Source: Limnoperna fortunei
Taxonomy: Eukaryota; Mollusca; Bivalvia; Mytilida; Modiolidae
Reading direction: 5' to 3'
Assembly (NCBI GenBank): GCA_944474755.1
Contig: OX104114.1
Location: 85,112,623 to 85,176,622, forward strand
DNA: 64,000 nt
Positions 8,229 through 61,595 of this stretch are shown here, in pieces. The notes beneath the pieces were generated by a model. The model ran no database searches, was not told the origin of the DNA, and was given only the letters and a program-made list of their open reading frames with translations. Each line of letters opens with the position of its first letter. Within the stretch, counting starts at the first letter, position 1. The position numbers and the translations under genes were made by a program.

Positions 8229-9622
8229 CTAATCGTCATCTCTTGCCGTTACAATAACATCTTGGGCGATAACCTTTCTTACGTGAATAGCTTCCGCTTT
8301 AACCGAATCTGCATATAAACTCCCAGCTTTGATGTCACCCGCGGTAATATCGATCCCTCTTATCACAGACTGGTTCCCTGTTTTATCCTTTGTTTGATCG
8401 ATTTCATCTTCGTAAAATTCACCGTCAGAATCGTCGAAATCGGACCACGTATCGTCCCAGAATGACTTACGTTTATTTCCTTGAACCTTTTGCACAGGAA
8501 GAGCTGTCTGAAGCTGAGCAGATGTCTGTTTGGGCATCTTAAGAGAAAATTGAGATATAGGTTGCCTGACATTAATTGGTCGAGCATCACCATGTTGTAA
8601 AGGTTGATGTCGTTGGACTGCAAGCTGTGGTTGAACCTGAGGTCCTTGAAACGTTCTATGTGAACTAATTCGTTGTCGAGTCTGCTGTTGTCCCATGTTG
8701 AATGCTAGTGGCCTCGGCTGCATTTGCTGGTTACCAGTCGCAGCACTTAACCGAAATGTATCTCCATTTTGTCCATTGAAAAATGCATCTTGTCGGGGTG
8801 GAAAGTAATTTCTGCGGTTGATTTGTTCGTTTCTGTCAGTGAATCTTTGTCCGTTAGTACCGGATGTCGGACTAGTAAGTCCAAAGCCACTACTGTAGCC
8901 TTTGTTTGAAAACGAAAATAACACAGGTTGCACTGGTCTTTCATTTTGTGTATCATAATTCTTTTGGAACTGAAAGGTGTTTGTATTTCCGGTGACAACG
9001 ACATTATCTGCAATGATATTTCTTGCTCGAACAATGTTTGAAGACACTTGATCTGCAGTCATGAATCCAGCTGTAATATTTTGAGCATGCATTATGTTCT
9101 CGTCTTGTTCTGCTGGAGGATTTTGATTGAATTCTGATAATGCAACTAAAACCGGACTTGTTTTATTTGGTGACTGTGTTGTGTTAAGCAACTTCTGATT
9201 TTCACTAACTTCCGATTTTATAACGGACGCTTTGTGTCCTTTACCGTTCTGTTCGCCTGGTTTTAAGTTCAGAGATAGTGGTTCTGTTGTGATTCTCCCC
9301 TTATAATTGCGGTTAAGTATAACCGTTCTCGGGGTTGTTGTCGTGGTTTGAAATTTAGTCATCTTATTGTATACATTTGTCAAAGACGGATGATGCTGAA
9401 CAAAGAAATCAGCAAGTTTTCTATTTACATGACTCAAAGATTTCAAAGTTTCTAATAAAACATTCATCAAAGTTTTCATTAAACTGTCGCTGATTTCATT
9501 CTGACTTTGCTTGTCGTAACTAGATGAAAAGCTCTGCTGTCCTGTTGGATTCTGTTTGTTGAAGACTACCATACTTCTCTTTTTAATAACGTGATCTTTA
9601 TGATATTCATGTTCACATTTAC
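8229..9622 (-). CDS. Gene 2, exon 2: secreted protein with two period-5 cassettes
   Basis: The exon starts at 9622 after a TTTAATTTAAG acceptor and joins the signal exon at 13947-13899 in phase 1, giving 480 residues. The ATG at 9572 is not the start: the frame continues upstream to the acceptor. A KKRS site lies at about residues 30-33, within HVIKKR, which closely matches HVIRKR of gene 5. Two ladder cassettes are seen: about 193-227 (ITAGF, MTADQ ... IIADN, VVVTG) and about 439-480 at the very C terminus (ITAGD, IKAGS, LYADS, VKAEA ... VIVTA, then DDD). Between them is a Gln/Asn/Pro-rich, probably disordered stretch with ALSEF and RFTDRN. An acidic patch at about 403-423 (WDDTWSDFDDSDG) resembles the acidic clusters of gene 1. 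Extracellular matrix protein is an inference; no enzyme motif is visible. Confidence 0.9.
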
Positions 9623-9849
9623 CTTAAATTAAAATTGTACAGATTTGATTAATGACAAATGACATGATTACATGTGTTTATATATTAATTGCATTTGTTC
9701 TTTTTTTCTTCTTTAACAGTTGTTTTAGGAGGTTAACAATTTTTTTTAACATGCGGTGTTTCAGTTTTTTGTGATTGCTCAACAAACAGCTATCAATATT
9801 ACAGCTATATCTAGCACTATGTCAAGTAAGTAAATCAAAAACAAAAAAC

Positions 9850-10600
9850 AACTAGAGGCTCCCAGGAGCCTGTATCGCTCACCAGAACCAGAAACTAAAC
9901 AACCCTTTTTATCCAGCTTTTTTTTTAGAAGGAATTGCCCAACACTTCTGCAAATGCCATTAATTTTGACCTTTTAAGGGAAATAACTCCTATAAGGAGG
10001 ACCTTTTGATGCTTAGAGGGAGAAGGGATGTTCACTTTAAATTTTCTATACCTGTTATACTGTTTTTACTATCAGCCGAAAACTATCTTGCACCCCACCC
10101 CCTTTTTGTATTTTAAGCCAACGTAGCTATGTAGATAGTCAGCTGTCATGATTTGTACAATTTTGGTAGAGGACATCTTCAAGATTATGTGTGCAATCTT
10201 TTAAATCAGTCCCCTTTCATTGGTTAAAGAAGAGAAGATTTTTTAAAATCAATTCAAATTGATTAAAAAATGTTCAAGGAGAATAATTCCTAAACGGTTC
10301 ATGAGACAATCTTGACCCGAAGTCATTTTTGTAGCCCTCATAGAGCAGAACAATTAAGCAATGCTAACTTTTTCTCTAGTTTAATTTTCAAGATTTTGAG
10401 GCAAAAATGTCAAAAATAATCAATTTCGACAATTAAAGGGCAATATATCCTATAAGGAGTCATCATACAACTTCGACCCAATAGAGTGTTTTGATGCCGA
10501 TAAAGGCGTGTCTCTTCGGTTTTTCTGTATCTGTTATACTTTTTGAACTATAAGCCAAAAACTGTATTTTGACCCCCCCCCCCCCCCCCAACTCCGTTCC
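9850..10600. repeat. Interspersed repeat with internal duplication
   Basis: It begins AACTAGAGGCTCCCAGGAGCC, where GGCTCC/GGAGCC form a small hairpin, then TGTATCGCTCACC. The segment near 9975-10115 recurs near 10436-10580: AAGGG(A/C)AATA..TCCTATAAGGAG, TTTTGATGC, CTGTTATACT, and AGCC(G/A)AAAACT before a C-rich run. I judge it a non-coding repeat of the kind scattered through mussel genomes, from memory of the style only; its class is unknown. Confidence 0.6.
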
Positions 10601-11130
10601 TTCGGGTCAGGTGAGGTAAAAACAGAATCGATTAGATTTGGAATGGCACCAGCTTTCGCTTGAAATGTGAATGCAGTTGTAGAAGTATATAGAGTTTGTG
10701 TAAGACAAAGATTTAGCTTTTTTGAGCGGCTACAATTAATGAATTTAATTATGTTCAACTAGAAAAAGGAAAGGGGTCTTTAACATGCCAGGAACGTGGC
10801 ACAAAACACTCCATCCACTATGAAGACAAAATGAATCATGTTGCTTAAATATAATTAAATATATTAGCGAACACTCCCAAAAGTTTAACATTCAATATAT
10901 TGTTCAGCATAATATGTTCTTATATTAATGTCATGTTTGTCTCTATAGTATTACGTACAACTAATAATGTAGCAGTTATTCTCTCACACAAAGTTGATTA
11001 TTTTATCTCAGTTTCTCAAGCACTTTTTTTTGGGGGGGGGGGGGAGGGTACGCAAATATGCGTTAAAATTATAAGAAGTCTAACAATTACGTTATCTTTT
11101 TCTTGGGTTCATTGAAGGTATAACAGTATA

Positions 11131-11297
11131 CAATTAATTACTGCAACAGCAAGAAATAATAGACACTAAGACCTGGACTTGAGGTGAACTGACCTGACTG
11201 AGTCCAACGGACGAGGTCAGGTCAGCGAGAGTCCAGGTCGAGGGTCCATTATTTTCTGCTGTTGACCACTAAAACAGTAATCAATCGTTTTATTATA
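11131..11297. repeat. Foldback (imperfect palindrome), about 165 bp
   Basis: Successive arm pieces pair outside-in: ATTAATTACTG with CAGTAATCAAT, CAACAGCAAGAAATAAT with ATTATTTTCTGCTGTTG, GACCTGGACT with AGTCCAGGTC, and CTGACCTGAC with GTCAGGTCAG. The loop is roughly GAGTCCAACGGAC. It looks like a hairpin-type MITE inside the gene 2 intron. Confidence 0.8.
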
Positions 11298-11310
11298 CCG
11301 AAATGAACTT

Positions 11311-11356
11311 CTCCAAAAGTCAACATATGTCACGTGACAAATGTTGACTTAAGGAG
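11311..11356. repeat. 46-bp near-perfect palindrome centred on CACGTG
   Basis: The halves read outward from GTCAC|GTGAC through AACAT/ATGTT, AAGT/ACTT and CTCC/GGAG, with only two mismatched dinucleotide steps on each side. The centre is a CACGTG E-box-type hexamer. It sits 14 bases after the foldback, so it may be part of the same element. Confidence 0.85.
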
Positions 11357-13898
11357 CAGTGTTGGTGGTCATTTAGTAGAAAATGAATTGAAATCACATG
11401 TTCAAATATAACCAATAGAAATTGACTATATTGTAATTAATACTCGTGAGGTATAATAAAAGTAAATGTGTACCAGTAACAGGTTACCAGATTGTGTACC
11501 ACAGTGAATACCTATGTTGTATTCTGATTGGACGAATAGTGGTCAGATGTACAATTTTTTGTCTGTAGCTCCAGCATGAATTAGGTTTTAAAAAAGTGGT
11601 GAAAACATTTCAGATCTAGCAAGATAAAAAAATTTAAATTTAATATTTTACATTCAATGCATTAGAAATTGCATGTAAAAGTTGGAGTGTCTCAAACTGT
11701 TCTAACTATTGAAAAAAGGAATCGATAACGGATATATATGGTATATTTTTTTTTAAATGTTGAAGTTTATTAACTTCCTAGCACCGATAAACACCGAGGA
11801 ATGTTAGAAATGTATGCAAATCACAGACATGTTAGTATTTCCGACTATGACCAAAACATTTACTACTGTTCTACCTATATCCGAGAAGATTTTTTGTATA
11901 ATTTTTTTCTGAAAGTACATTAAGGCTATTTTTGCATAGATTGTGGTATCTGCTATTGAAACTAATTTAAAAAGAGGTACTCGAAATAATAACATGTTCT
12001 AATGCACACACTAGAAATTGCGGGTAATTGTAAGAACTATTTTCATCTTTTCTACATAAGCAGATTTCAAACCACACAATATTACAGGAAAGTGTTCTTC
12101 TGTTCTCATTTTATTTTAACTTTGTTTCTTTATGGTCATCTGTACTTTTCGCAATGATTTGGTCATATTCATGTGCATAAATTGAAATAAAAATATAAGG
12201 CCAAAAATAAGGTAAAATTAAAACCGTACTGTTCAGTTTGAATTTTGGATCAATTTCTTCCAGTTTTGCCATCCCCATTAAACCCTTTGGCTGAAAACTG
12301 CAATTTATCATAAATTGCAGAATTGTATGCCACAATTAAGCAAATTAATAGGAATGAGTCTTAAATTTTCTTAAATGTTAGTCCAAAATGTGCAAAAGTA
12401 TCCTAACGTGTAAATGTATTATTTATCACGTGATTATTATGCACATGATTTAATTAACAAAAACTTGTCAACTTAAGTTTTGTAATGGCAGAATTAAAGT
12501 AAAATACCCAAATTTAAAAAGAAAAACCACTTCCTTTACTGTTTGTGGAATTAAGTGCTACCGACAGCCTTTGACAGGCATATCGGTACTTTTATTTCTT
12601 TCATTTTTTTCATCTTACTATCGGAATAGTTTTTTTAATATTACATGAAAATTTAAAGCGATAGTTTTGGTAAGCGAGGTGAGCTAAATCCATGCAAAAG
12701 TGAAGTTAGCAAAAATCAGAGATCCAACGATCAGTTTTAAATTACATTCGGGACGTATACAAGTTAACACACATTTCAACAGCATAGACCGATAGACAGA
12801 AAATTGAGGCTGATGCTAAATGTTATTGCGATCTAGGAAGGGGCAGAGTTTTTGCTGCTCTACAAACACTACAAATGTTATTTTTTCATTGTATTGTTCC
12901 TTTCTGCTTTCCTTACTTGTATGTTGTGATTACACTGTGAGAATACCCATCAGTTCTTAAATAATAGAATTACCTCGCGTGGCGGATAAGGAAAACAGGC
13001 CTATGATACGGAAAACTTGTGTGCGGCTCATACTGTGTAATTTGGATAGCGCCACTTTCTTGCAGATAAAGACCCAATGTATAGTTCTTCAAAATCAATG
13101 GGGTGCATTGTAGTAGCTACAAAAGTCCTTTCTACTCTATGCTACTTTATTGTGACAGTCTAAAATGTCTGCCCCCCCCCCCCTTTAGTCCATCCCATGT
13201 CTCAAATGCATTCATTTTTGGTTAACTTGAACTCGTCCTAAATAAAGCAACCATTCATGTATCACAAGAACGTGATAGCGAAATTGATTTTTTTAAATAT
13301 TCCCAAGTGGGGAATATTTTAAAAGATTAACAAAACGTGTAGAAAAAGTCCTACTTTTATTTGGGATGGCCGAAGACACCTGATACGGATGGATGAAAAC
13401 GAAAACATGATAACATGGTTGAGTGGATGGAACAGCGAAAATAGGACGCACAAGAAGAACAAGGACGACATTTACACTGGCGAGAAAAGAATGGCGCTTG
13501 TTATCAATTAATGTAACAGTCAACATCGATGTACAATAAAACATGTGCAAATACTGCGAATAAGAAGAAAAAGAAGAAATACATCTATAGCAAATAAGCA
13601 GAAAAGTAATGGAATCGTAATCAAAGCCATGGTCAACAGAAAACAGGCGAACAAATTACTAATAAATCACCTAAACATTTTTTTTTTATCAGAAACAGCT
13701 ATCACCTTTCCATTCACTTTTTACACTAATGTCAATATTTTTATAGAAATAAAATTTTTGTTTCGCTTATTTGAATATGATATTATTATTCGTCACAATC
13801 ATTACGCTAATTATATAATGGCGACTATGGTAATAAGTATTGTATGCATGACAGAGCTTTTACGTACAATAAAGAAGAAAAAAGAATTAAATACTCAC

Positions 13899-13947
13899 AA
13901 AAAGTTACTGTCTGAATTACCAGCAATAAAATAATCTTCAGTTCCAT
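13899..13947 (-). CDS. Gene 2, exon 1: signal peptide
   Basis: The minus-strand ATG at 13947 opens MELKIILLLVIQTVTF and is followed by one base and a GTGAGT donor at 13898. The split codon becomes TGT (Cys) when joined to the acceptor at 9622. This is a classic short signal peptide: one acidic and one basic residue, then a Leu/Ile/Val core. Phase and length match the first exons of genes 3-6, which is the main support. The intron is 4276 bases. Confidence 0.85.
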
Positions 13948-13994
13948 CTTTGTAAATAATTCTTTAAAATATTATACTAAATCCACATTTTAAA

Positions 13995-14004
13995 GAATAT
14001 AAAC
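13995..14004 (-). promoter_or_regulatory. TATA-like box upstream of gene 2
   Basis: The minus strand reads GTTTATATTC about 50 bases upstream of the gene 2 ATG. In AT-rich DNA this may be chance. Confidence 0.25.
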
Positions 14005-14049
14005 ATCATATCTTCGACATGTTCATTATGGCCATAATGTAGTCATTAC

Positions 14050-14739
14050 ACGGTACGTGATTAGCATTTTATGACAATTATAACAACGAACAAACTACAG
14101 ACCTAATAATAAACGTACTATGGACAAATAAATAGTCAATAAAGCAAATAAATATCGATTAATGGATTTGGGCAAAAGATGACAATTTTCTGGTATTTCT
14201 TTTATTTGCATTTAAAAAATGTATACTCAATGAAACACGAACTATATTTAATTTTCATAATGCAATACAAGAATGTTAGAATAGTCTAGTAATAAGGTTT
14301 AATAGAATGTGACCTCTGGACTTCATGAACTAGAACGATATTCGACAGGCCCATATAGATAATGTTATACAAACTGTAAACGTCAATTTCATAAATGCTG
14401 CAAAAAATGTGTGCGAAAAACAAAAAAACTCAAATAATACCATAAGGGGTCCATAATTGTCAACATTTTCACAAGTTTGCAAAGAGCACTCTTTTTGAAA
14501 ACCCCCTCCCTCCCTCCAAAAGAGTACGTCAACATTTGTTTCAAGTCTGCACATCCACATTACCGGAAGTTTGAAGAACGTACAAAAAAAAATGTTGAAA
14601 TTGAAAAAAAATCCACAATACACGAAAGCAATATAGTTTTGTAACGAACGCAGAGAACAACAAACAGCTGGGGTGACTAGTAAGAATTATAAAAAGGTCT
14701 TACATGAAACGTACATGCATTATCAGCTAAAATCTGAAA
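14050..14739. other. Intergenic, no supported feature
   Basis: AT-rich DNA upstream of gene 2. A minus-strand ORF of 97 residues at 14330-14623 has no recognisable motif and I do not support it. Confidence 0.5.
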
Positions 14740-25645: not shown

Positions 25646-25709
25646 ATGGCTTTGAAAATAGACATGACAACAACAATCTGTTTAGTAATTTTCGGAATTT
25701 TTCTTGACA
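25646..25709 (+). CDS. Gene 3, exon 1: signal peptide
   Basis: ATG at 25646 opens MALKIDMTTTICLVIFGIFLD, then one base and a GTAAGT donor at 25710. Joined to 29133 the split codon becomes ATG (Met), continuing SFANVSNKKEE. The hydrophobic core is TICLVIFGIF; cleavage after SFA is plausible. Phase 1 and the 64-base length equal or resemble the other first exons. A second in-frame ATG (Met7) could serve as an alternative start. Confidence 0.75.
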
Positions 25710-26405: not shown

Positions 26406-26409
<4 letters not shown>

Positions 26410-29132: not shown

Positions 29133-30520
29133 TGTCATTTGCAAATGTCAGCAATAAAAAGGAGGAAGTACTGTTACAGCCTACCGGAAATGAGACCCCA
29201 GCTACCATTCCAAATATTTCAAACAAATTTATGCAAAAGCTCAAATTGCTGGGTAAATTGAGTGGCCACACTCACATTGATAAGATTCTTACTACAAGTG
29301 AAAATGATATAAGTATGAATGCTGGGCAGGATGAGGTAAGATTTAAACGTGCAACAAAAGAACGTGACGGAGTTTTAACTTCAAAGAACATCAAGGCAAA
29401 TTCAATTAAATCTACAAACATTAAGAGTGAGAAAGTTCTTGCCGACAAAATATTGGGAGATCGAATAATTGCGGATAGTATACGTGTAGCCAAAGATATT
29501 CGGCGTGGTAACCCATCAACAGGCCCAGAACCGTCAGTGGTATTTAATCCGAATCCAGGTCAAGAAAGAGACCTTAACGAGCCAGTCCCAACTATAGCAC
29601 CAAATGTACCAGGTTCAACTCTTCCGACGGAACCAAACGAAAGTGGTCTACAGCAGCCAATACAAGCAAACAGACTAGGTTTACAAAACCGAATTGATCC
29701 AAACGGACTCGGTCTACAGCAATTCATACACCCAATTAGTCAAGGTACACGTCAAAAACCAGTGAGGCTGAATATTCAGCCGAGTTTAAAAACACAATCG
29801 ACCCCTGAACTGAGACCTTTTTTGCATACCGGACAATCTGGTACATCAGGTCAAGAATTTGTTAGAGGCCCACCAGGCGAGAAAGTCGTCGAACGTCGTA
29901 AAACTACAGAAACTACCTCCAAAGGTCGGCGAAATGGCCTCAATTTATCGACCACAACTGGTAAATTAAACGATAATATATTTGATCAATTTATTAGCAA
30001 AAGAGATAATGGTTTAAAGTTAAAATCTCTGTTTCCAGAAGGATTTCCAAAAATGTCAGAAGCAGAAGAAAGTGGGATTACGAAAAGAAAGATATCTGAT
30101 AACTCGGGGACATTGAGGGCTAAAGAAATACAATCTGGTAGTATAAGTGCACAAAATACAAGAGCAAAGAAGATTCGGGCAGACGTTATCAAAAGCAAAA
30201 CAATTGACGCTAAACTTATAGTAATGCGAGAAAGGACGAACAAACCGAAGGAGGATAATAATTTGGCGAAACCTCAAACAGCGCTTTACGAGAGTACTCA
30301 TCCTATATTTACTGTAAACAAAACACCAGAAATCAAAAGTGTGTGGGAATTACCAGTACAAAATAATAGTAAGAGTAGAATATTAACAGTTAATCATCCT
30401 GATGGTATCATGAACGGGGATTTAGTACCTAAGACGGTTACCAGCTATCCTGATTTACCTGATCACGACCCGTTCGCCACAGGACACACGTTTATCAGAG
30501 AGAACCAGCTAGGCTTTTGA
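29133..30520 (+). CDS. Gene 3, exon 2: secreted protein with two period-5 cassettes
   Basis: The exon starts at 29133 right after TTTTTTCAG. Joined to 25646-25709 it encodes 483 residues and ends at TGA 30518-30520. A basic site RFKRATKER lies at about residues 90-98. Cassette 1, about 99-144, runs IKANS, IKSTN, IKSEK, VLADK, ILGDR, IIADS, IRV. Cassette 2, about 345-389, runs LRAKE, IQSGS, ISAQN, TRAKK, IRADV, IKSKT, IDAKL, IVM. The roughly 200 residues between are Pro/Asn/Gln/Thr-rich with loose repeats (LGLQ ... P-N-G/R-L-G-L-Q), probably disordered. Both cassettes follow a basic (K/R)-rich stretch. No catalytic domain, cysteine framework or membrane segment is seen. It is a paralogue of genes 2, 4, 5 and 6; a matrix role is inferred. 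Confidence 0.9.
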
Positions 30521-34207: not shown

Positions 34208-35208
34208 TTATTGCCAATTGCTTGGGTGAAAACCATATCTTTGACGTCTTGTCCTTGTGTTGCCATACATTCCAGATCCATTTTCGTCAAGTGGTTTCAA
34301 TATTTTCTGGCGCTTGACATATCCATTTTGAAAGGAAATAAAGGGATGGTTATGCGTATCTATTATAGTTGTTTCTGATTGAAATATACTGTCAGGCCGG
34401 CTATTATATTTATAGAGGTCTCTGATATTTTCTAAGGGCCTGTTGTTTGCTTTCGGTGACTTTAGATCACGATTACCAGCATACTTTTTAACAACTGTCT
34501 GTTGATGAAAGTTCGACAGGCTGTCGGACGTTTGTTTGTACCAAAAGTTCTCTGAGTTGTCCGTGTTGGAAAAAGGATAACCGTAGTCACTATTAGTGAA
34601 TCTGTTTTGTCCACGATAATATCCGGCACCTGGACTTCTTTGTATCTCTGTCCTTGGTCGGCGATATGTAAATTCACTTAGGAAAGGTTGATTTTGTTTG
34701 GACGTTACGATGATAGTTTCGCCATGAATTTGATCCGCATAAATCTTATCAGCAACAACGGAGTCCGCGTTCATGGTTTTAGCACTTATTTTGTCAGCAT
34801 TTATGTTTGTTGCCATAAGAATACCATCTGACTTTGTTCTGCTCTGAGTTGATTCAATTCTTGTATCCGGTTGACTAGACATATGTCGTTCGTCATTACG
34901 CTGATCAAGTATATTGTTTAGATTCAAAGATTGTTCATCTCTGCTTCGGGAAAAATGGTTCTGCTTCTCTCTATAATTTGTGTCATCCTGGTAATTTTTT
35001 GGTTGTAAATTCCGTTTCTGCATTCTCCTTTTTCTCCCTTTTCGTCCACTCCGAACTGATTTATTAGCACCACGTTTCTCAATTCTGTGCACTCTGTAAA
35101 TATTCTTGTCATCCAGAGCTTGCATTAACAAATTATTCTCGTACGTGATTTTTGCAATACTTTGGTTCAGAAGACCGTCACTTTTTTGTTTGTCAACTAA
35201 AATGTTAT
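34208..35208 (-). CDS. Gene 4, exon 2: secreted protein with one period-5 cassette
   Basis: The exon begins at 35208 after TTTGATTTTAG and joins 35874-35811 in phase 1 (split codon GAT), giving 354 residues ending in NWQ. The apparent upstream ATG at 35272 is intronic read-through. A dibasic site in HRIEKRGANK lies near residues 65-74, then a very basic stretch (RKGRKRRMQKR). The single cassette, about 147-190, runs INADK, ISAKT, MNADS, VVADK, IYADQ, IHGET, IIVTS. Immediately after it is FLSEF...RRP, then NRFTNSD; both motifs recur in genes 2 and 5. The C-terminal third is Asn/Ser/Tyr/Arg-rich with a second basic segment (RTRRQRYGF). No known domain. The intron is the shortest of the family (602 bases). 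Confidence 0.9.
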
Positions 35209-35810: not shown

Positions 35811-35874
35811 CTTCTGTAAAGAAAGGTGCTACTCCAGCAGCAAATAAAATCAAAACAAGCGTCAAAAAGCGCAT
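35811..35874 (-). CDS. Gene 4, exon 1: signal peptide
   Basis: The minus-strand ATG at 35874 opens MRFLTLVLILFAAGVAPFFTE, then one base and a GTATGT donor. This is a textbook signal peptide: Arg at position 2, Leu/Val/Ile core, and a small-residue AAGVA region. Length 64 bases and phase 1 equal those of gene 3. Confidence 0.9.
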
Positions 35875-36172: not shown

Positions 36173-36509
36173 GTTGGTTAGTGTTGCGAGACTGTCACGT
36201 TACTTTCCTGAGATACCCAAGTTGGTACGGTGTGCCGAGATTGTCACGTTACTTACCTATGATACCACAGTTGGTACGGTGTGCCGAGACTGTCACGTTA
36301 CTTACCTAAGATACCACAGTTTGTACGGTGTTCCAAGACTGTCACGTTACTTACCTAAGATACCACAGTTGGTACTGTGTTCCAAGACTGTCACGTTACT
36401 TACCTAAGATACCCAAGTTGGTACGGTGTGCCGAGACTGTCACGTTACTTACCTAAGATACCACAGTTAGTACGGTGTTCCAAGTCTGTAACGTAACTTA
36501 CCTAAGATT
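36173..36509. repeat. 49-bp minisatellite, about 7 units
   Basis: Units start at 36173, 36221, 36270, 36319, 36368, 36417 and 36466, that is 48 then 49 bases each. The core is GTTGGTACGGTGTGCCGAGA and then CTGTCACGTTACTTACCTAAG. Two unit types differ at GTGCCGAG versus GTTCCAAG, and at CCCAAG versus CCACAG. The array lies about 300 bases upstream of the gene 4 ATG. It is not CRISPR: there are no unique spacers. Confidence 0.97.
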
Positions 36510-40167: not shown

Positions 40168-41372
40168 CTAAAAATACCATGGATCTACACTTGTATCGTA
40201 CGTTTTTGACGTTTTGTCGAATGCATCGGGCCTACCTCCTGTTCCCATATTAAAATGGGCATCTAGATTATCGAAAATTTGAAAATCATTGTTAGGTCCA
40301 GTTTTTTCAGCTGTAGACGGATTTCGAGTTCGCAATCCTCCCTTTCTGATATACTGACTGGCAGATTGTATCAATGGCTTTTCAGCAATAAATTCGCTTA
40401 GTGGGGGTGCAAGAGCTTTCCTTGCATATTGATCCAACATACGTGCGGAGCTGAATTCGGGAAGTGGTTGAATCGCAGGTGGTATATCTACTGGCCCAAA
40501 TCGGCTACTTTCAGGTGCTTGAAAAAATTGACTGTTTGGCTGAATATCTTGAGAGAAAAGTGTATCTCTATTGGTAAATCTAGGTCTAACAAGTCTTTGT
40601 ATTGATTGAGTATTATCAAACATTGGAATGCTCTGTAAGCCCCCATAATAATTTTGTCCATCAATTTGACCAGCAAATTGTGGCTCATAGATTTGACCAT
40701 CAAGAACGGAATTGTACCTTTGAGTTCCAGCCTGTTCATAAATAGGCTCCGGTTGGATGAATTCACTGGTACTAGGTCTACTGGATTTGCTTCTTTTACC
40801 TGTCACGACAACATCCTGAGCTTTAATTTCGTCGGCTCTAACCTTATCAGCCCTTAGTCTATTTGCTCGCATTTGATCTGTTCTGACATATTTAGCTTGA
40901 AGCTGTTTAGTTTCTAACAGACCATTAGTTCTCTCTTGCCTCAATTCGCTCAAAGCTGGCTCTTTTGGTAAAATAGGAGCTGGTTCGGTGGGTGGTTGTG
41001 GTCGAGGTCTTCGACGACGTTGACGCGCATCAGACGGGTCGAGAACATTTACTACTGGAGAATTCATTGGGGAATCAGCGGCTGTTGGCGTTGGAAGTGG
41101 GATCTCTGGTCCTGCATTACCAGCAGGATTACCACCACTACCCCCAGGAACCTTCTTCCTTCGCCTTCGTCTTCTTTGAACGGTCTGTGGTTCTTCTTGG
41201 GGTGGTTCAACTACGTTACGTTTTCTTATGACGTGTCCAGATGCAGGGAAATAATCTTTTAGAAGGTCAATCTCAATCAGTGTATTTCCATCTGCCAATA
41301 AATCGTACTGTAAGTTGTTAACGATGGGATCATTTGCAGTGAATTCTGTAACTTGATTTAGACCATTTGGAT
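40168..41372 (-). CDS. Gene 5, exon 2: secreted protein with one period-5 cassette
   Basis: The exon starts at 41372 after CATTTTTCAG and joins 44344-44290 in phase 1 (split codon AAT), giving 419 residues and ending DPWYF. The upstream ATG at 41406 lies in the intron. A basic site HVIRKR at about residues 65-70 matches HVIKKR of gene 2. Two Arg runs follow (QRRRRRRKK and RQRRRRPR) flanking a Gly/Pro-rich segment. The cassette at about 168-211 runs LQAKY, VRTDQ, MRANR, LRADK, VRADE, IKAQD, VVVTG. Directly after it come STSEF, later PRFTNRD and PLSEF, as in genes 2 and 4. The rest is Gln/Pro/Ser/Phe-rich and probably disordered. No enzyme domain is seen. Closest relative in the window by shared motifs: gene 4, then gene 2. 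Confidence 0.9.
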
Positions 41373-44289: not shown

Positions 44290-44344
44290 TAGCATGGACA
44301 ATACTCAGAAGGACGGCAACACAAAATAATGTCAGTTCCTTCAT
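44290..44344 (-). CDS. Gene 5, exon 1: signal peptide
   Basis: The minus-strand ATG at 44344 opens MKELTLFCVAVLLSIVHA, then one base and GTGAGT. Core LFCVAVLLSIV, with HA-N forming a good cleavage site exactly at the exon junction. Phase 1 fits the acceptor at 41372. Confidence 0.92.
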
Positions 44345-44419
44345 GGTAATAATCCAAATAATCCTCCTGTGTTCTTAGTTGATGGCCAGTCAGTGACACA
44401 ACACGCACTTCCAGAATAA

Positions 44420-44427
44420 CTTATAGT
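44420..44427 (-). promoter_or_regulatory. TATA-like box upstream of gene 5
   Basis: The minus strand reads ACTATAAGTT about 80 bases upstream of the ATG. Position suits a TATA box with a 50-base leader; weak evidence. Confidence 0.3.
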
Positions 44428-44429
44428 AT

Positions 44430-50627: not shown

Positions 50628-52408
50628 GTCATTATATAATTCTGTATTTATTTACCTTAATGAACTTTACTGGTGGTAATGACATCATTTTTATTTTATG
50701 ACGTTACATATTCAAAGATCACTCGTCTTTGCCCATTTTATGCTGCATTTAACTCAATATATTCGCATTTGATGTACCAATATATTCTCTAATAATGTTA
50801 AATGTTTGTATCAACAAAAAACCTAAATAATCTCTAGACAACATTTGAGATTGACAACTTTGGCGACTAATCAAGTGATTACATGATTTCACAAAGAAAG
50901 ATTGCATTCGAAGATTTTTCTCAGTGCACATTGAAATTTGATGGCTGTGTTGTCCAGGACGCATCTTTTGTTAAGAACTTGGGAATGTACTTTGACAAAA
51001 TAATGTCTATGGGAAAACAGGTGTCTGAAATTGCAAAGTCATGTAATTTTCAAATCAGAAATATAGGGCGAATGCGTGCAAGACACTAGTAGCATCATTA
51101 GTTACTTCGCGATTGGATTGTGGAAATTGTCTGCTATATGGAATCAATGAATGTCATCTAAGTAAATTACAGAGTTCAAAACACAGCGGCCCGACTTATA
51201 ACGAGAAAACGCCGGCACGAACATATAACTCCTGTTCTCATTTCTCTACATTGGCTCCCTGTGAAGTTCAGAAGCATTTACAAGATCTTGATGTACACTT
51301 TTAAAGCTCTTCATGGTCGCGCTCCAGTTTATATTGAAGAACTAGTTAAACGGCACGAACCACAAAGAACTTTACGTTCACAGGCGAAAACTCTGTTACA
51401 ACAAAAAAAGTCGCTAAAACGTACGGAGACAGGCGTTTTGACATGGCATCGGCAATAATCTGGAACAGTTTACCATCTACTATACAAAATGAACAATCCT
51501 TGAACTTTTCAAGAAGAAAGTTAAAACTCACCTGTTTAGAAGTGCATACAATCAATGATTTTAATTTTGTAAATTATAGACTTAGTAATCAGTATTGCTT
51601 TGGAGTAGATTTTAAGTTAATTGGTCTTTTTTCCTTCTGATTAATTACATTTATTGTCAAGGTTGTGGTTGTATATTTTAGATTAAAATCGATAGATATT
51701 TTATTTTTATTTTTTGAAATTATTATTATTTGTAAAAATTTTAATTTTACTCATGCGTGTTAGATTTTTTTTTTTTAATGTTTTAGTTTCAGTACAAAAT
51801 TGTTTTAGCGTTTCTCTGCTAGGTACGTTTTATTGTTTTATTAATATTGTTGGGCAATTTATTGTTGCATGTAGTGTAAATTCCTTTTGATAATGTGTTT
51901 TTATTATTGAATATTGTGATATATTTATAGATAATGTTCCTCATGTGATATTGTAAAGCGCCTGGAGTAATTTTTTTTCGTATTGGCGCTATATAAGAAT
52001 TGTCTATAATAATACAATAATAATTCGACAAAATGTAGAAAATATCTAATTATTTATATTAAATAAGGACAAAGGTTTCTTTTATACTTACTAAATAAAG
52101 CAAAGTTGTACTCGTGACTTGTGTACCTTTTTGTTGTAATTGCAGTATAAATCATTATTACATTCCGTTGTTATACCCCTTGCAACGAAGTTGCCAGGAT
52201 TATAATGTGTTTGACCCGTCCGTCCGTCAGTCCTTACTGTTTGTGCAAATTATAAAAAAGTTGATGAAAGGATATATTCCAGTCTACCATGAATTAGTAA
52301 ATAGTTTATGGCATATTTTACCATTATATGAACTACCATCACTATATGTTAACAACCAAATTGGTTAAATTGTTTTGACAGTGATAGGTATGTACGGCAT
52401 CCGATATT
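50628..52408. repeat. Tandem duplication copy 1, interrupted by a LINE
   Basis: Starts GTCATTATATAATTCTGTAT and ends GGCATCCGATATT. It matches 52409-53013 along its length except for the LINE at 50912-52022 and about 60 bases (with TTGACCCGTCCGTCCGTCAG) absent from copy 2. Confidence 0.9.
50912..52022 (+). mobile_element. 5'-truncated LINE with 6-bp target duplication
   Basis: Broken plus-strand frames carry the C-terminal part of a CR1/L2-type reverse transcriptase protein: KNLGMYFDKIMSM, KSCNFQIRNIGRMR, a stretch with RLDCGNCLLYG, then THWLP-like (LHWLPVK in relatives; frames shifted here), TFKALHGRAPVYIEELV, EPQRTLRSQ, and WNSLPSTIQN. The 3' end TGTAAAGCGCCTGGAGTAAT, then GGCGCTATATAAGAATTG and an ATAATA-type tail, is typical of such elements. 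ATTCGA at 50906-50911 is repeated at 52023-52028. Comparison with the uninterrupted copy 2 (ATTTGA at the same place) confirms the insertion site. Several stops and frameshifts show it is inactive. Confidence 0.85.
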
Positions 52409-53013: not shown

Positions 53014-56000
53014 TGCTGAAGAGTTATTGTTTTATCTTATTTTGATAACAATTAGTTTGGCGACATCGTACATGCAACAGAGGGCTTGTGCAAGCATCTT
53101 TTTAGAATTATAATTAGTTTCACTAGTTACATAAACATTACATAATATGTATATTGCATAATATAATTCGAAATTGCATGATTTATTTAAGCATATGCTG
53201 TTACAACTTTAAGTACAAAAGAATATTTTTTTCTATTTCTTTGTGTCATGATAAATTTTTAAATGCTTGTAGTTTAGATATAGATGATTTTGTTAAACGC
53301 TAACCACGAACAGGTTAAACATTCATCCATATACTTTCTACGAGTCTCTTTTGATTTCTATAAACTCACCATGGATAGTATAGAACTGTTGTTAGTACAC
53401 AGTTTCTCTCCCTTGAACAAAAACAAACTTATATGGACTTGCGGCTGGGTTACATTCTCCCTTTGTCGTTGGTATTTGGATACTGCATTTTTGATTTTTT
53501 TACAAATTAATATTTCAGTTATAACTGACCCGTCTTTTTATATACTGGCTACAATCATCAGTCCCTATAACGTAACTATTAAATAATAGACTTGAGATGT
53601 TGTGTTAACTGACTAATTTATGGATTGATGTATTTATTTATCAAGTCTGTCGATCTCAATGTATGTAGCCATTAATTCAAACAGTTTTGCATTTACCAAG
53701 TGGGGAATAAGATAGAACAATGAATATATATTTGGATGACCACAGGAAACAAAAGTAAAATATCATTAAAATGTTTAGCGTTGCACAGCCTATTCCGTAT
53801 GAAATAAGCCCCCGTCCTGTATTCTGATTAAGAGGAGATTAAAGGTGCATTTATATACACTATCACAATCATTAAGGGTCTTGTCAAACAGATGTTATCA
53901 TACAAGCCACGGAACGGAAACTAATTGTTCATACCCCGAAGTTTAAAATCAGATAAAGCTGCTTAAATGTAACAATGATAGAACTTAATGACTAAACATT
54001 CAATAACACCTGCATGCTATCTCAATAGATTCTCATTAAAATTCGGATTGTGTTACATTAGCCCATTAATTTGACACATTACATTTGTGCTTTACATTTT
54101 TTTCATTTTGCACTTCTAACATAGATTTTCCAAGTATTTTTTTGTTCTTGCTACACTTAATAAAAATATTACACTAGCATGCATTAAAGGTGGAACGAAC
54201 ACATTTTCTGACGGAAGAGTTAGTATGTTTTTATAATTATTTCCTATTAATAAGCAGTTAATCAAGGATGACATATCAACTTATAAGAACTTAATGAACC
54301 AAAAACTGTTTTAATCAAGGTAATAAGATTTATTACCTGCTAATTTAAATATTTCTTGTCATTTCCATAATTGTACAACGACTTTTATTAATTTATTTAT
54401 TGAATTGTCATTTGTGTTATATAACATGTCAATGCCCTTGTTGATTTAATACATGATAACATACTGACTTTTGGCTGATTTCATGTCTATCATATTAGAA
54501 AAAACCATGCAGACTTGTTTATTATCGTATAAAACGTCTTTTTCGACACTACAAAGGGGGCGTTGAACACAAAAGGAACGTTTACCTAACTTTATGCCCG
54601 TTGCTACTAGAGCTGACAAAATGTAGTAAAGGGCATAAAACTCGACTTTTTACGTAACAACAAAACTTCAAAGTAGGGTGGTTTACGCACCTCTAGTAAA
54701 TGATATCCAAATGTATATTTGCCGTAGCTCTGCGAAGCTTGCAGAATTACGAATCAACCACTGGTCAGTTCGGAAACATAATTATGTGTCCGAGTGGAGT
54801 TGCATGACTAAATGCGAACCGTTTTCAGTTATTAAATATTTTAACAGACTTGGCAAATTGTAGCGGAAAACAACTTCTCAGAATTGAACATAGGTTTTTT
54901 TTCTAACAACCCATTAGAAAAAAACCCATTTTGTTAGTTTTTGCAAGTTGGCTTGTTAAAATGGAAAAATGTATGCAATGAAATTCGATAAATGACAGGG
55001 CGTAAGAAAATCTTAATACAGCACAAGAAGTTTCTAGAAAAAAGCCGTAAAGCAAACTAACAATATGCTCAATTATTTGCATTTGGAGATTGTGAAAGTT
55101 TCGTAAAATGGATCAGAAATATAGAGCACAGACTGCTTGACATACTTTATATATAGCCTGGCTTCTTCATTATGTTGGTTAAATGTCCTTTCCCTAGAAG
55201 CTTTCTACCAGAAATATATTTATTTAATCTAGGAGGAAGGAGCTATAAATGACAGCATACATGCTTTTCCATGCAATTGAAACGCTGATTTATTTCATTT
55301 GATATGTAACTTGTTGTTTTCAATTTATATAATAATTGGCATTTTTCATATCTAGAAATAGAACCAATATAACAAATGACATTGGCTTAAGCTTCTTACA
55401 TATGTTTATGTTACGATTATAACAGAGACTTTTAAATTGTATCTATCCTAGGTATTTTTTATTGAAAACTTTGCCGATTCAATAAAGTTTGATTCTTAAT
55501 TATATTTCTGCCCTTAAAAGACTTATACTGACAACTACAACTAAACTCTAACACGACTTTCCACGTCATCTTTCGTTCATTGACAACAATTGAACATAAA
55601 CTTTTCGTATGGTGTTTACTTTTCACAGAAATACTAGACCCTAAGATCCGCAATCTGATTTTCAAGACGGGACGCTGTTGCTGGCCGAACCTGTTCAAAC
55701 AGGAAATGGTTTTTCCATGATTGACAGAACCCACTTGATGCCATATATCTGTCATTACGATGAGTTTGTCGTTATCGAAAATTCATCTCCCAAATGCGAT
55801 CAGACATTGATTTTAACGCAAATGACTACGAGTTACTCGACAGGTGTCTAATTGACACTGCTTACTCGTCCGAAGCATCTGAGTGCACCTATCCTTTTTT
55901 CTATTCATCTTACTTTTTTGTTGTTTTGTTTTTGTTCTTTTGAGTTTCTTCTTTATGTCGTGTGTCACTATCTTATGGGGTTTGCTACATTTGTATAGTC

Positions 56001-58365
56001 TATACAATTTGACTGATTTTATACATGTAAGTAAATTTGCTATTTAAAACATGATGTCTAATAAAGGAACATTTTAAAATTACATGGCCAATGTGTCGTC
56101 CATTTTGTCTACAACAACCAAAGCCAATATTACAGAAAATGACAATTCTAGTGATTTTGTAAAATTAAACATCAACTAACATGAGAGAATAAAATATTTA
56201 AATGAAAAATATGTAATTATGCTCAAGATATGCTTATAAATACATTGAAATTATTCTCGCATTTTCTTATGTTTACTTTTAGCATATAAGTTGAAGAAAA
56301 TTCCTTAAAATTGGAAATTTGTAAAAAGATTTAAATCATAACACATCTCTGGCATCATAATGAGTCACACTCAAGACAATTGTACAAAACTTTTAACTTC
56401 TAAGCACACTAAAAACACACATAAGAGATACATTTTTGCCTAATATTTTAAATTTCCTGATAATCGTCAGTTTAGGAGGCCATATTTGTACTATAATTGT
56501 ACTTTCTTCATTACCTTCACATATGAGACTTAGAGCGAAATACATATTGTATAAATAGGCTGTTACCCATTTTAAACTGGTAACCACGCACATTAAACTT
56601 AAAATCTACTGTCAAATTAAATAGACAAATTGATTAATAGCGTTAAAGACAAGTTTATAGCAAAATGTGTGTAGGTTTTTGTAATGATGTCGTAAATTAC
56701 TAATTGCATCGTTGTCATTCAAATCAATAAAAACAAATATATAAAATTAAAATCCACAATTAATAATTGTCCTTGGGAATGATATATTACACATATTATT
56801 GTTATACATGTTTGAAGTACTGACTACTATATTTGCATGTAGCCCATAAAGAATGTTATGTATGTTGTGCTCTTAATTCTTTTGTATTGTTTATTATAAA
56901 TTTTTAAAATCAGAGTTAATTTTTATTTCCCGTTGTAACATACAAAAAGAATAGAAGTTAAGTAAAAATAAGCATTTTCGTTTTTTATAATGGGGTTGAC
57001 GCATAATTCGGGTTAAATATAGCCTTTGATCTTGGTTTCTATTGCGACGATCCACAATCTTTTCTCCTACCTTTTCTAATAACGCATGGTGCCATAACAA
57101 AGATGAATCATTTCTGAAACCAAACCTACACTCTTAGCATATAAATTGCGTCACGTCGTTTATTATTATTAATGTCAATACTTTTTTTATCTTATTTGGT
57201 AAATGGCATATTTCAGTCATATGAAGTATTATATAATATACAATGACGTTTATGTCAAAATCGTTTCCTTGAGCGATTATGTAATATATGCGATCGTGGT
57301 CACGAATTGTTTCTTTATTATAATTTTTATTCAGTACGTACCGGGATCCTTTACTTGTAGAAAATATATAAATTATACATAAATATATATTAATTTTAAA
57401 ATAAAAATTAAATAATTCAACATTTCTATACATAGAATAATAAGACAACAGTTCACACGCATTATAATAAACTTTAAGATTTATTTTTTTATTTAAAAAA
57501 AAAATTTAAAAACCTAAAACTTATTTATTATTTCGCTGTGCAATTTAATTTACATTTAGTTTATATGACTTGTGAATGTAACATAACAACAATAATCATC
57601 TGTAACCTTAAGCATGATTAACTTCATTAGATTATTTATTTGAAAATGACGAACATCAAATGATGCCGTATTGGCATATAGTTTTCTCAATAACATAACC
57701 AAAGTTTACTTAAAATGTCGATTGGACTACATACCACTTGTTGACAAGAAAGCATTGAAGGATAACCAATCAATGTAGCACAACGTTTGATTCTGCTAGG
57801 TTATTCCAAAGCAGATCAGCTTCAAACGGTTAATTCTGCCTATAACCAGCTCGTATTCCACTAGTAATCCAATAAACAAACAGGCAATAAAAAAAATTCC
57901 TTATAAAGCTGACTTTTGAGGAATTTAGCTATGACGACTCTTTTATAATTTATAGAAATAAAAGCACAGCAGCAAAAATATACAAAATTATGGGATATAG
58001 GGCGGGAGGATGTTCAAGTCCGTTGTTATCTGTGTTAAACGTAGGATGAAACATTTGGCATTTTCCATCTGTTATGTATCATTATTTCATAATAGGAATG
58101 TTTGACCAGATGTTATTAGCATACTAGACAATTATAATTTCCACCCCAGCAAACTATAACGGTTCATTTTATAAAATATATTTTACAAATGTATTGATAT
58201 CAGGCTAAAAAATAACTACGTAAATACTTGTCAAATCAGTTCATACCTATTAAAACATTGTTTCTCCGATGGTCAATTACATGACATTTATAATGCATCA
58301 AGCCCTGGCAGAATATAGAATTATGTACAAATTGTGTTAATTCTTTTACTCCTGGGCGTGAATTA
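53014..58365. other. Intergenic, about 5.3 kb without a supported gene
   Basis: AT-rich. ORFs of 100 residues or fewer (53284-53586, 55459-55755, 57134-57448) show no recognisable motif. A 14-bp-arm hairpin lies at 54893-54927 (GGTTTTTTTTCTAA and TTAGAAAAAAACCC). Otherwise nothing identified. Confidence 0.5.
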
Positions 58366-58647
58366 TTACTTGGTCTTATCTGCAGTTTCTTTGCAATTGG
58401 TGGTTATGTATATTTTAATATTGATTTGATAAGAATGTAACACATATTTGTTCATTTTGTATCCAGCTACATTTTTTATTTTCGGTATAGCATGAACTAC
58501 TGTTACAATGGCTAACAGTAATAACGAAATTAATATTATTACTGCAACAAAGGAGGTAGTGGATTTACCTTGCTTCTGCAGAGCGAACAGAGATTTGAAT
58601 CCTGTTTTATTTGCAACTTCAGCAATATGGGTTTTTTGCTTAATCAT
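58366..58647 (-). CDS. Possible small single-pass membrane protein, 93 residues
   Basis: First ATG at 58647 gives 93 residues. Residues 1-29 are polar and basic (MIKQKTHIAEVANKTG...), 31-52 form a strong membrane segment (SFVAVIILISLLLLAIVTVV), and the tail is Lys-rich, ending KETADKTK. A TATATAAA sits about 57 bases upstream, and the gene would diverge from gene 6. I recognise no family. It could be a real intronless gene, a terminal exon or chance in AT-rich DNA, where Leu/Ile-rich frames are common. No canonical AATAAA was confirmed downstream. Confidence 0.3.
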   Translation of the reverse strand: MIKQKTHIAEVANKTGFKSLFALQKQGKSTTSFVAVIILISLLLLAIVTVVHAIPKIKNVAGYKMNKYVLHSYQINIKIYITTNCKETADKTK

Positions 58648-58703
58648 ATCCCCGGCACTTTGACAATAAACCACCTTTTCCCAGAACTGTGTAGTAAAAG
58701 CTC

Positions 58704-58711
58704 TTTATATA
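58704..58711 (-). promoter_or_regulatory. TATA box candidate for the small membrane protein
   Basis: Perfect TATATAAA on the minus strand, at a suitable distance (about 57 bases) from the ATG at 58647. Confidence 0.35.
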
Positions 58712-59166
58712 TGCATTATCAACGCTCGTAACTGTGATTGACGTTTACAATACATATAACCAATCTACATTATGAGGACATTTGGTCTAAGTTTCTCTTT
58801 TGAGGGTTTGTCACTGACTTTGGGTAGGAAACCCAAAAGTTTAAAACAAATAAATCGAATCTACATGTATTGATGTTCATTTCCTAGCTACATGCTGGAA
58901 CTGTTGTTTAACCTCTACCATTGTTAAACTCATGCCACAGTTACAGATGAACTGAGTATGCGATAAAAGAAAAAAAATGTCTAACACCTATTTGTACATT
59001 TTCCTATGTTTCATGAAACACATCACATAAACATGTTAAAATAGTACAGCAACAATGGCTTGGAGCTTGACAATCGAGAAGGTACGGTGTCTGATTTATG
59101 ATACAAACTTAACCTTCATTTAATATTTGTGTTAAACGTAGAAAAATGTAGACTGTGTAAGTTAAA
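58712..59166. other. Divergent upstream region of gene 6
   Basis: Between the possible small minus-strand gene and gene 6. No clear TATA box is seen on the plus strand close to the gene 6 ATG. Confidence 0.4.
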
Positions 59167-59218
59167 ATGGCGTATTTGACAGCATATTTTGTATCAAGTC
59201 TGATAGTGTTCTTCTCAT
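59167..59218 (+). CDS. Gene 6, exon 1: signal peptide
   Basis: ATG at 59167 opens MAYLTAYFVSSLIVFFS, then one base and GTAAGT. Joined to 60310 the split codon is TTC (Phe), and the peptide continues IYASDSRLF. Core FVSSLIVFFSFIY, with YAS as a good cleavage site. Phase 1 as in genes 2-5. Confidence 0.9.
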
Positions 59219-60309
59219 GTAAGTATTAAGTTTAAGTATGTTATAAAATTATGTCTTTAAATAATAAATAATTAACCATCAGATTTTTATTTTCATTAAT
59301 CATACTGCAACAATTTTTTTTAAATATTTTTAAAATTTCTAAGTTATAACAAAGGTCTATAGTGTTCATGGTGAAATTCTTTGGCATTTTACTAATTATA
59401 TCTTTTGATTTATGTATTAAATAAGATAATAAAAGCTATTATTGAGTTTTTTAAAAAATGTACTTAATCATTTACAACTGAAGAATACATTAAGTAACTT
59501 TGCGATTGTGTTCAATAGTTACTTTATTTGAACCTGTTGCATTATCAATTCAGAAAACTACATAGAACAACCACGTAAAGCGCACTATTTCCTCTTATCA
59601 CTGCGCTTATGGTTATAAATAGAATAGAGAGATTTTTCAAATCTTGCAATAACTTTTTTATTGTATACATTGAGTTTTGATAAGACTTACTCTGGTTTCA
59701 ACGTAGCACGCTTATATACGGAGTTTTTTTGTCTACGTGAACTGTCAAAATACAAACAAGCACAACCCAGTGTAAATCCTCAATGTGTTTTAGTAAGAAT
59801 AACACTAAGAATTGTTCGTCGATGTGTAAATACCATGAAAAATAAATCCCGTGAAAAAATATTTAAAAAAAATGAATGTTTAATTTACAGAAATATAACA
59901 AATACTGCAAATTGCAATAGGTCTGTCATTAAAACAGTTAATAATGCAACGATTTTCATGTCTTCCTTTTAATAAAAAATTATATATAATTAAATAGGAA
60001 CAAACTATGGAAACAATTTGACTACCGTATTTATTATTAGTATGGATTTCGTTGACTCTTCTATTAAAAGACCATTTAATAATAATATACTAAGGATATG
60101 TATTAAAAAGTCATGTCTTCCTGTTGGCAACAAATAAGTCCAGGCTTATTAGTAACAATAAACTAAGAATGTGTTATCATATTGTAAATATTACTGTCAA
60201 AACCATAATAAAACCCGCTTGTAAAACTATAAATAAATCTTGTAATCATTTTTGTTGTTAACATAATAAGAGATCGTGTATGGTTCATTAATCTTTTTTA
60301 TATTTTCAG
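59219..60309 (+). other. Intron of gene 6
   Basis: GT-AG intron of 1091 bases (donor GTAAGT, acceptor TATATTTTCAG). A 103-residue frame at 59661-59972 inside it begins with a non-ATG codon and shows no family. Confidence 0.8.
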
Positions 60310-61595
60310 TCATTTATGCATCAGACTCCAGGTTATTTCTTACAAAACATGAAATTAGAAATCGGCGAGCAACTGTTTCTGACGGTGTTAATATTGGACG
60401 AATTACTGCTACAGACATTACAGCTGGTGGAATTTCTGCAAGCTCAATAAAGGCAAAAAATGTAAATGCTGACAAAATTAAGGCTAAAAATATTAAAGCT
60501 GACTACATACGTGTAACAAAGAGGAGAAAATCGAAACTTGACGGACATTTAGATTATGAAGCAGAAAATGCTCTGATTCACGAGGAACCTGTAGCGCCTT
60601 CTTTAGATAATGGGCAAATGTTGTTTCCAAGTACTCTGCCGCCTATAAGAAACAAGCAGGAGTCTGAAATACCGACAGAATCTGCAATACCACCTGTTGA
60701 TGTGGGAAAAACGTTAATTCCAACTACAGTATCGCCCGTGGGGAACGGACAGGAGTCGGTAATACAGACAGAACCGCAATTAGACAACAGAGAAACGTTT
60801 GTTATACCAACAGTACCACAGAGAGAGAACAGTAAGTCACAAACAGAAGCACCTTTTGTCAATGGGAAACAATTGGTCACACCGACAGTACCACCTGGAA
60901 TGAACGAGCTGGAAGGTTTATTGAAAGCCAGATTAGTAGAATCCAAACATATCGATACAAATTTTATAAAAGCTAATCAAATTAAGGCTGAAAAAATACA
61001 TGCAAAAGTGGTAAACACTGATAGTCTAGACTTAAACACAAACAAGAACAGAGACAAGAACGCGTTAGAGGTCATTAACAACAAATTGAATACAGAATTG
61101 TCTGACAGTGACAGGCCGAAATTACGAGAGGAAGAAATAAAGTCAATGAAAAAAAGGAAGAGACGGAAAAGACCCGACAACAGGCGGAAAAAGTCGGAAA
61201 GTCTAATCCCAACAAAACCACCAGAAATTGTAGGAATAAATAAACGGGAGCTGGTAGATTCTACCATTTTTAAGGACTTTCAAGGACCATCTGTACCGAA
61301 TATTGTACAGGGTCTATCAAATGAACAAAACTTAGGTCACACTAATGAAGATAATAAGAAAGGTGGGATTGTTAACGGATTTGATTCGAATTTAGCAACC
61401 CTAATGTTTCTCGGTTTATCAGACGATTATGTAAAGAATCTTCAAACTGAGAAACAATTAGTGAAAGAGCACCCTACAGTAAGAAGTAGAAACCGGGTCG
61501 TAAAAGCACTTCATGGTGTAAAACGTGAGAAACAGGAAGTGAGAGAATATCCTACTGTCAAATCTTCACGACAACAGTCTAAATCAAAAAGTTGA
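60310..61595 (+). CDS. Gene 6, exon 2: secreted protein with two period-5 cassettes
   Basis: The exon starts at 60310 after TATTTTCAG. With 59167-59218 it encodes 445 residues and ends at TGA 61593-61595. A GTG at 60276 is intronic and not the start. A basic site HEIRNRRATV lies at about residues 30-39. Cassette 1, about 44-87, runs ITATD, ITAGG, ISASS, IKAKN, VNADK, IKAKN, IKADY, IRVTK, then RRKSK. Cassette 2, about 215-260, runs LLKAR, LVESK, HIDTN, FIKAN, QIKAE, KIHAK. Between them are four loose Pro/Thr-rich units (TEPQLDNRETFVIPT type). A strong polybasic block (MKKRKRRKRPDNRRKK) follows at about 295-315, and the C-terminal part is Lys/Arg/Ser-rich. No domain of known function; matrix role inferred from the family. 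Confidence 0.9.

Follow-up and report, generated by a model that had tools for sequence, protein, structure and literature searches.

The question raised by this stretch of the Limnoperna fortunei genome is whether a regular five-residue ladder, which recurs in a cluster of genes predicted to encode secreted proteins, is a folded module and what such a module might do. The window, that is the whole stretch of DNA that was analysed, comprises 64,000 nucleotides (assembly GCA_944474755.1, contig OX104114.1, 85,112,623 to 85,176,622, forward strand) and contains six long coding exons, numbered here as genes 1 to 6. Genes 2 to 6 hold eight ladder cassettes. Our best reading, which is a tentative one based on sequence and a structural model, is that these genes may be a locally duplicated family encoding secreted extracellular-matrix proteins of a mussel-like bivalve, in which each cassette may act as a two-turn beta-solenoid-like association module; the beta-solenoid-like fold, taken by itself, is moderately supported.

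The original prediction described one or two ladder blocks in each of genes 2 to 6, often closing with a step of the VVVTG, IIVTS or IRVTK type, and both descriptions are borne out. There are 2, 2, 1, 1 and 2 cassettes per gene (named by gene number and, where there are two, by a or b; Table 1), each of about 40 residues and, as a rule, of eight pentads of the form h-x-s-x-x, where h is I, L, V or M, s is A, S, G or T, and the last step is bulkier. Of the 63 pentads, 62 begin with I, L, V or M, and the third residue is A, S, G or T in all but one of the 55 non-closing pentads, whilst no charged residue occupies an inward position in any cassette. The closing steps, from g2a to g6b, are VVVTG, VIVTA, IRVAK, IVMRE, IIVTS, VVVTG, IRVTK and LDLNT, five of which fit [V/I]-x-V-T, and a [D/N/S/E]-G pair precedes the ladder in six of the eight cassettes (the exceptions are g2a and g2b). 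The sequence VNIGR (60387-60401), directly before g6a, would be a ninth pentad if counted; it was treated as a cap because it lacks a small third residue and, in the alignment with the relatives of gene 6, falls outside their ladder.

The ladder exceeds what shuffled sequences produce. A six-frame scan of all stop-to-stop pieces of at least 15 amino acids, using the cassette profile with filters off, recovered the eight cassettes in five exons (domain counts 2, 2, 2, 1 and 1); no further piece of the window scored above the profile inclusion threshold, the next having an E value of 0.24. The longest perfect h-x-s-x-x run, which is six steps in gene 2 and seven in each of genes 3, 4, 5 and 6, was compared with 2000 residue shuffles per protein and was reached by one shuffle of gene 5 and by none of genes 2, 3, 4 and 6. 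Gene 1 has no ladder by either the step-run test, in which 1894 of 2000 shuffles reached its run and thus placed it at chance level, or the cassette profile. Each cassette was still recognised by a profile built from the others, at 28.8 to 49.8 bits, and residue shuffles (200 per cassette, of which 173 to 198 were reported) scored 14.0 bits at most. Shuffles of pentad order score high, since these keep the ladder; the number out of 200 that reached the real score was 3 for g2a, 0 for g2b, 8 for g3a, 3 for g3b, 21 for g4, 1 for g5, 0 for g6a and 1 for g6b.

The order of the pentads is also conserved between cassettes. Aligned from the closing step, which was itself excluded, the cassettes gave a mean BLOSUM62 score per pentad pair of 6.38 in register and, with shifts of one, two, three and four steps, of 5.76, 5.52, 4.89 and 4.15, and none of 3000 pentad-order permutations reached the in-register score when VNIGR was included; with VNIGR left out the shifts gave 5.93, 5.60, 4.98 and 4.29, and a single permutation in 3000 reached it. 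The cassettes are therefore best regarded as copies of one ordered eight-step unit and not as runs of arbitrary length. The underlying DNA is not repetitive: mean identity between 15-mers within a cassette is 0.39-0.48, synonymous codons are mixed, and Tandem Repeats Finder (score 50) flags, among the cassettes, only a 1.9-copy 30-mer in g6a; thus the regularity appears to be maintained at the protein level.

AlphaFold2 (AF2) models cover g6a and full-length gene 6, and hence g6b, among the eight cassettes. In a 58-residue segment containing g6a, residues 13-53 form one continuous strand element, with block values of the predicted local distance difference test (pLDDT) of 86-90 over residues 21-50; in the full-length model the block means are 78-91 over residues 41-80, which correspond to g6a, and 349 of 441 residues have a pLDDT below 50. 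The proposal of a compact beta-solenoid in an otherwise disordered protein is therefore supported by AF2 for g6a but not for g6b. Helix or disorder throughout, which would have spoken against that proposal, is not what was found among the cassettes examined, g6a being modelled as continuous beta, nor did any cassette match a described domain, of another fold or otherwise, above a curated cut-off. Three points weigh against a solenoid: g6b is not folded in the full-length model and has low confidence; no PDB fold gave a good match, and none of the matches listed is trustworthy; and AF2, according to a published study (PMC11795689), over-predicts beta-solenoids for repeat sequences, for which AlphaFold 3 is reported there to give lower confidence than AF2.

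In the most probable of the alternatives, a lone chain of the cassette has no fold and gains order only when it self-assembles, forming a cross-beta (amyloid-like) sticker; the solenoid predicted by AF2 would then be an artefact of the repeat. Besides the documented bias and the low confidence for g6b, it is favoured by the size of the cassette, eight pentads being very small for a stable solenoid, and by the I/V-rich steps beside small residues, which suit stacking. However, the near-constant number of eight steps, the gap-free cassettes of seven gene 6 sequences and the conserved order fit a closed, capped unit better, and the repeat is imperfect, unlike the artificial sequences of the AF2-bias study, with no charged inward position. 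We consider this account unlikely, though with a real chance of being correct.

With respect to described systems, the cassette shares its five-residue step with the pentapeptide-repeat proteins, which form a right-handed quadrilateral beta-helix and have two inward positions spaced by two. Published reports describe these as having at least eight contiguous repeats, four per turn (PMC8145042), and the consensus [STAV][DN][LF][STR]G (PMC11685980). At least eight contiguous pentads are present in seven of the eight cassettes, g2a having seven. However, the order of sizes is swapped in the cassette, large first and small second, as the original prediction had stated, and the consensus is not recovered (best-phase mean at most 1.71 of 5 per pentad, single pentads at most 3 of 5); moreover, the Pfam search of the eight cassettes listed five families at E 10, and none of these is a Pentapeptide family. 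The cassette may thus work like a pentapeptide repeat, but because of the unmatched consensus and the absence of a listed Pentapeptide model we do not class it among these proteins. A parallel is offered by coccolith-matrix proteins with pentapeptide repeats, which are associated with a biomineral but come from unicellular algae; aspein, from pearl oysters, is rich in Asp. PMC11685980 gives the coccolith proteins the classical consensus and also mentions a pentapeptide repeat in aspein. No earlier description of the cassette was found in a literature search of mainly open-access work and few subscription journals, nor was any mention in connection with shell or byssus, the contents of mussel proteome papers lying outside that search.

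Conservation was assessed through relatives of gene 6. A search with a full-length profile of genes 2 to 6, which scored only the 7995 candidates sharing most words, found seven proteins, six of which are relatives of gene 6; the seventh (P0008) is considered below. Three are from Mytilus: an unnamed protein of M. coruscus (P0002, E 4.4e-12) and the uncharacterized LOC127701313 of M. californianus (P0003, E 5.2e-12) and LOC143079656 of M. galloprovincialis (P0006, E 3.4e-8). The other three (P0004, P0005 and P0007, E 7.4e-10 to 4.4e-8) have the same arrangement throughout from RX[KR]R onwards and probably represent mussel DNA in other data sets. Gene 6 is 36-38% identical to these and 29-30% identical to the Mytilus proteins, whose likeness to gene 6 extends over 91% of it and takes in the leader, RX[KR]R, cassette a, TPTxPPG, cassette b and the LGLSD[DN]Y tail motif. 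In an alignment of gene 6 with its six relatives both cassettes are gap-free, and the mean pair identity over ungapped columns is 0.66 for cassette a and 0.62 for cassette b, whereas the long linker gives 0.32 and the tail 0.41. Within the pentad, position 3 is the most conserved (0.93 in cassette a, 0.79 in cassette b), followed by position 1 (0.71 and 0.75), whilst position 2 reaches 0.43 and 0.54. All 112 pentads of these seven sequences have I, L, V or M at position 1, and 97 of the 98 that are not closing steps have A, S or T at position 3, counts which are not independent because the sequences represent in effect three lineages.

Two further stretches of the gene 6 family are conserved, TPTxP..EG before cassette b (identity 0.72) and a C-terminal motif around LGLSDDY (0.73). 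TPTxP (60879-60899, plus strand) lies directly before cassette b in all seven sequences and is followed by PG in four, PR in two and SG in one. FLGLSD[DN]YxxxLQTExQ (61407-61457, plus strand) is C-terminal in gene 6 and its relatives, and its conservation equals or exceeds that of the cassettes although the rest of the tail varies; LGLSD[DN]Y occurs in six of the seven, P0005 having LGLSDAY. Gene 6 thus carries the marks of a mytilid gene 6 family, namely two cassettes, TPTxP before the second and the LGLSD[DN]Y tail motif, whereas genes 2 to 5 lack both motifs and LGLSD is absent from genes 1 to 5. A search with gene 2 alone, over 3391 candidates and up to E 10, recovered no relative; relatives were found for gene 6 only, and the failure to find any for genes 2 to 5 in these limited searches is no evidence of absence. 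The g6a region alone matched only P0001 (E 0.021, 181 candidates). This protein, from an 11-kb contig, has an I-x-A-x-N ladder in three short blocks (residues 197-233, 331-345 and 388-412), scores 42.5 bits against the cassette profile and matches no Pfam or NCBIfam family.

The weak conservation of position 2 is relevant to a second alternative, in which the cassette would be a rigid, flat, charged array that binds mineral, chitin or other matrix without self-association. K, R, D, N, S and T are abundant at the positions of the cassette that face outward, and the neighbouring gene 1 has an acidic, serine-rich tail that is presumably like that of many biomineral proteins. However, one shared ligand is unlikely because the net charge of the cassettes spans -2 to +6 and position 2 is poorly conserved, and we regard binding of this kind as improbable.

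The nearest likeness in sequence is to I-x-A-x-x ladders of phage tails. Against the PHROGs, whose families carry no cut-offs, g6a matches phrog_1330 ('tail protein', E 2.6e-5) and 11 other families at E 1 or better, including phrog_5555 ('tail protein', E 0.0021); for the eight cassettes together 17 families are listed, of which phrog_26466 (annotated as of unknown function) is the most shared, with three cassettes and a best E of 0.0015. The Pfam family Gp58 was matched by one cassette below cut-off (E 0.021, 13.6 bits against 34.5). P0008, found with the genes 2 to 6 profile at E 7.5e-6, looks like a phage tail protein and has no Pfam family; its ladder has the same spacing and the same order of large and small residues as the mussel cassette, but is long and lies within a 675-residue protein, whereas the mussel unit has about eight steps and its own closing step. 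Phage tail fibres form intertwined trimeric beta-helix stalks, and the cassette could be such a stalk, with the proteins as trimers, a likeness to which phrog_1330, phrog_5555, phrog_26466, Gp58 and P0008 all contribute. However, phrog_1330 is matched by only one of the eight cassettes, tblastn with g6a recovered nothing from the phage records at E 1 (although the low-complexity filter may mask one), the single-chain AF2 model already sets the strands of g6a against each other, and no PDB sequence covers the P0008 ladder at E 1; a trimeric stalk is accordingly quite improbable. The cassettes are also not part of a phage tail module, since the genes that hold them are predicted to be spliced and to encode leaders, and there are relatives in Mytilus; the likeness, given weak scores and a simple motif, is probably convergent.

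That the proteins of genes 2 to 6 are secreted, clustered and bivalve, as originally proposed, is supported by the gene models and by the Mytilus relatives of gene 6. For each of the five genes a candidate model of two exons, in which a phase-1 intron follows the exon for a hydrophobic leader, yields a single open frame, with predicted products of 480, 477, 354, 419 and 445 residues, and a hydrophobic leader also starts the three Mytilus relatives; the proteins are thus probably secreted. Among these leaders, that of gene 2 is the most doubtful because other candidates exist there. An RX[KR]R site ends 8 residues before the first cassette in gene 3, 11 in gene 6 and 10 in all six relatives; gene 2 has KKR and lacks RX[KR]R, and the fraction of shuffles containing RX[KR]R is 0.325 for gene 4, 0.194 for gene 5 and 0.095 for gene 6. 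It is very improbable that cleavage at dibasic sites releases small secreted peptides from these proteins, with the cassette as the peptide, for although a [KR]R site precedes the first cassette in all five window genes and all six relatives, the last such site lies 161, 64 and 30 residues upstream of it in genes 2, 4 and 5, and each protein has no more than two cassettes, which are ordered units of 40 residues and not short peptides.

The reading that we prefer, of the cassette as a beta-solenoid-like association module, would work as follows. Sequence, conservation and the AF2 model suggest a minimal solenoid of eight steps, in each of which I, L or V at position 1 and A, S, G or T at position 3 would face inward, position 2 outward, and positions 4 and 5 would form the corner; with four pentads per turn, as in pentapeptide-repeat proteins, eight would make two turns, and the bulkier last step would close one end. 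Because so small a fold would leave strand ends exposed, the cassettes would probably stack on one another, and stacking within or between proteins would provide reversible cross-links joining the disordered chains, two-cassette proteins bridging chains and one-cassette proteins ending them. We infer such an assembly role, as we infer cleavage at the RX[KR]R site that lies just ahead of the first cassette in gene 3, in gene 6 and in the relatives of gene 6; this may free the end of the cassette and restrict assembly to after secretion. The fullest version, in which the cassette would be a new, mussel-born matrix cross-linker, a minimal closed two-turn beta-solenoid of reversed size order that polymerises end to end, joining disordered secreted chains, and is unlocked by proprotein cleavage next to the cassette, appears unlikely.

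The remaining features of the window, which is AT-rich (GC content 0.27-0.38, except for 0.50 in the first 2 kb), are listed with the genes and cassettes in Table 1. For gene 6 a script had proposed an alternative leader exon 8.5 kb upstream, which was replaced by the candidate given in the table. Gene 1 encodes about 53 copies of a GNGHGGPT-type octapeptide, followed by an Asp/Ser-rich tail, and has the look of a matrix protein. A region of overlapping open frames, in more than one frame, has no Pfam family above cut-off and resembles the C-terminal end of a long interspersed nuclear element (LINE) reverse transcriptase. A scan of the window for transfer RNA genes found none, and no Rfam family reached its gathering score there.

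Table 1. Features of the window, with positions counted from its first letter; intron lengths are in bases and bit scores are those of the left-out profile.
Feature	Positions	Strand	Details
Gene 1	1-3177	+	open at window start
Gene 1 octapeptides	174-1454		24-base tandem repeat
Gene 2 main coding exon, two cassettes	8229..9622	-	open frame; phase-1 acceptor
Cassette g2b, eight pentads IRGID..VIVTA	8244..8363	-	34.2 bits; stop four residues later
Cassette g2a, seven pentads MHAQN..VVVTG	8988..9092	-	32.2 bits
Gene 2 candidate signal-peptide exon MELKIILLLVIQTVTF	13899..13947	-	phase-1 donor TTT/GTGAGT; intron 4276
Gene 3 candidate signal-peptide exon MTTTICLVIFGIFLD	25664..25709	+	donor ACA/GTAAGT; intron 3423; in-frame ATG six codons upstream
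Gene 3 main coding exon, two cassettes	29133..30520	+	open frame; phase-1 acceptor
Cassette g3a, eight pentads	29375..29494	+	31.4 bits; RFKR ends eight residues upstream
Cassette g3b, eight pentads	30113..30232	+	32.0 bits
Gene 4 main coding exon, one cassette	34208..35208	-	open frame; phase-1 acceptor
Cassette g4, eight pentads LMATN..IIVTS	34700..34819	-	34.6 bits
Gene 4 candidate signal-peptide exon MRFLTLVLILFAAGVAPFFTE	35811..35874	-	donor AAG/GTATGT; intron 602
Tandem repeat between genes 4 and 5	36187-36508		49-base unit, 6.6 copies, 90% matches
Gene 5 main coding exon, one cassette	40168..41372	-	open frame; phase-1 acceptor
Cassette g5, eight pentads LETKQ..VVVTG	40798..40917	-	39.1 bits
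Gene 5 candidate signal-peptide exon MKELTLFCVAVLLSIVHA	44290..44344	-	donor CTA/GTGAGT; intron 2917
Overlapping open frames	51047-51637	+	
Gene 6 candidate signal-peptide exon MAYLTAYFVSSLIVFFS	59167..59218	+	donor CAT/GTAAGT; intron 1091; picked by eye
Gene 6 main coding exon, two cassettes	60310..61595	+	open frame; phase-1 acceptor; relatives in three Mytilus species
Cassette g6a, eight pentads ITATD..IRVTK	60402..60521	+	49.8 bits
Cassette g6b, eight pentads LKARL..LDLNT	60921..61040	+	28.8 bits; preceded by TPTVPPGMNELEGL

The matrices of mussels attract much interest as materials, and it is usual to regard many of the proteins in them as low-complexity chains that lack folded parts. The cassette would offer a natural case on the question of whether AF2 solenoid predictions for short repeats are real. 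If the association module proposed here is correct, a genetically simple beta module of 40 residues, conserved in mussels, would cross-link disordered matrix proteins, and such chains would gain a defined sticking point that can be expressed.

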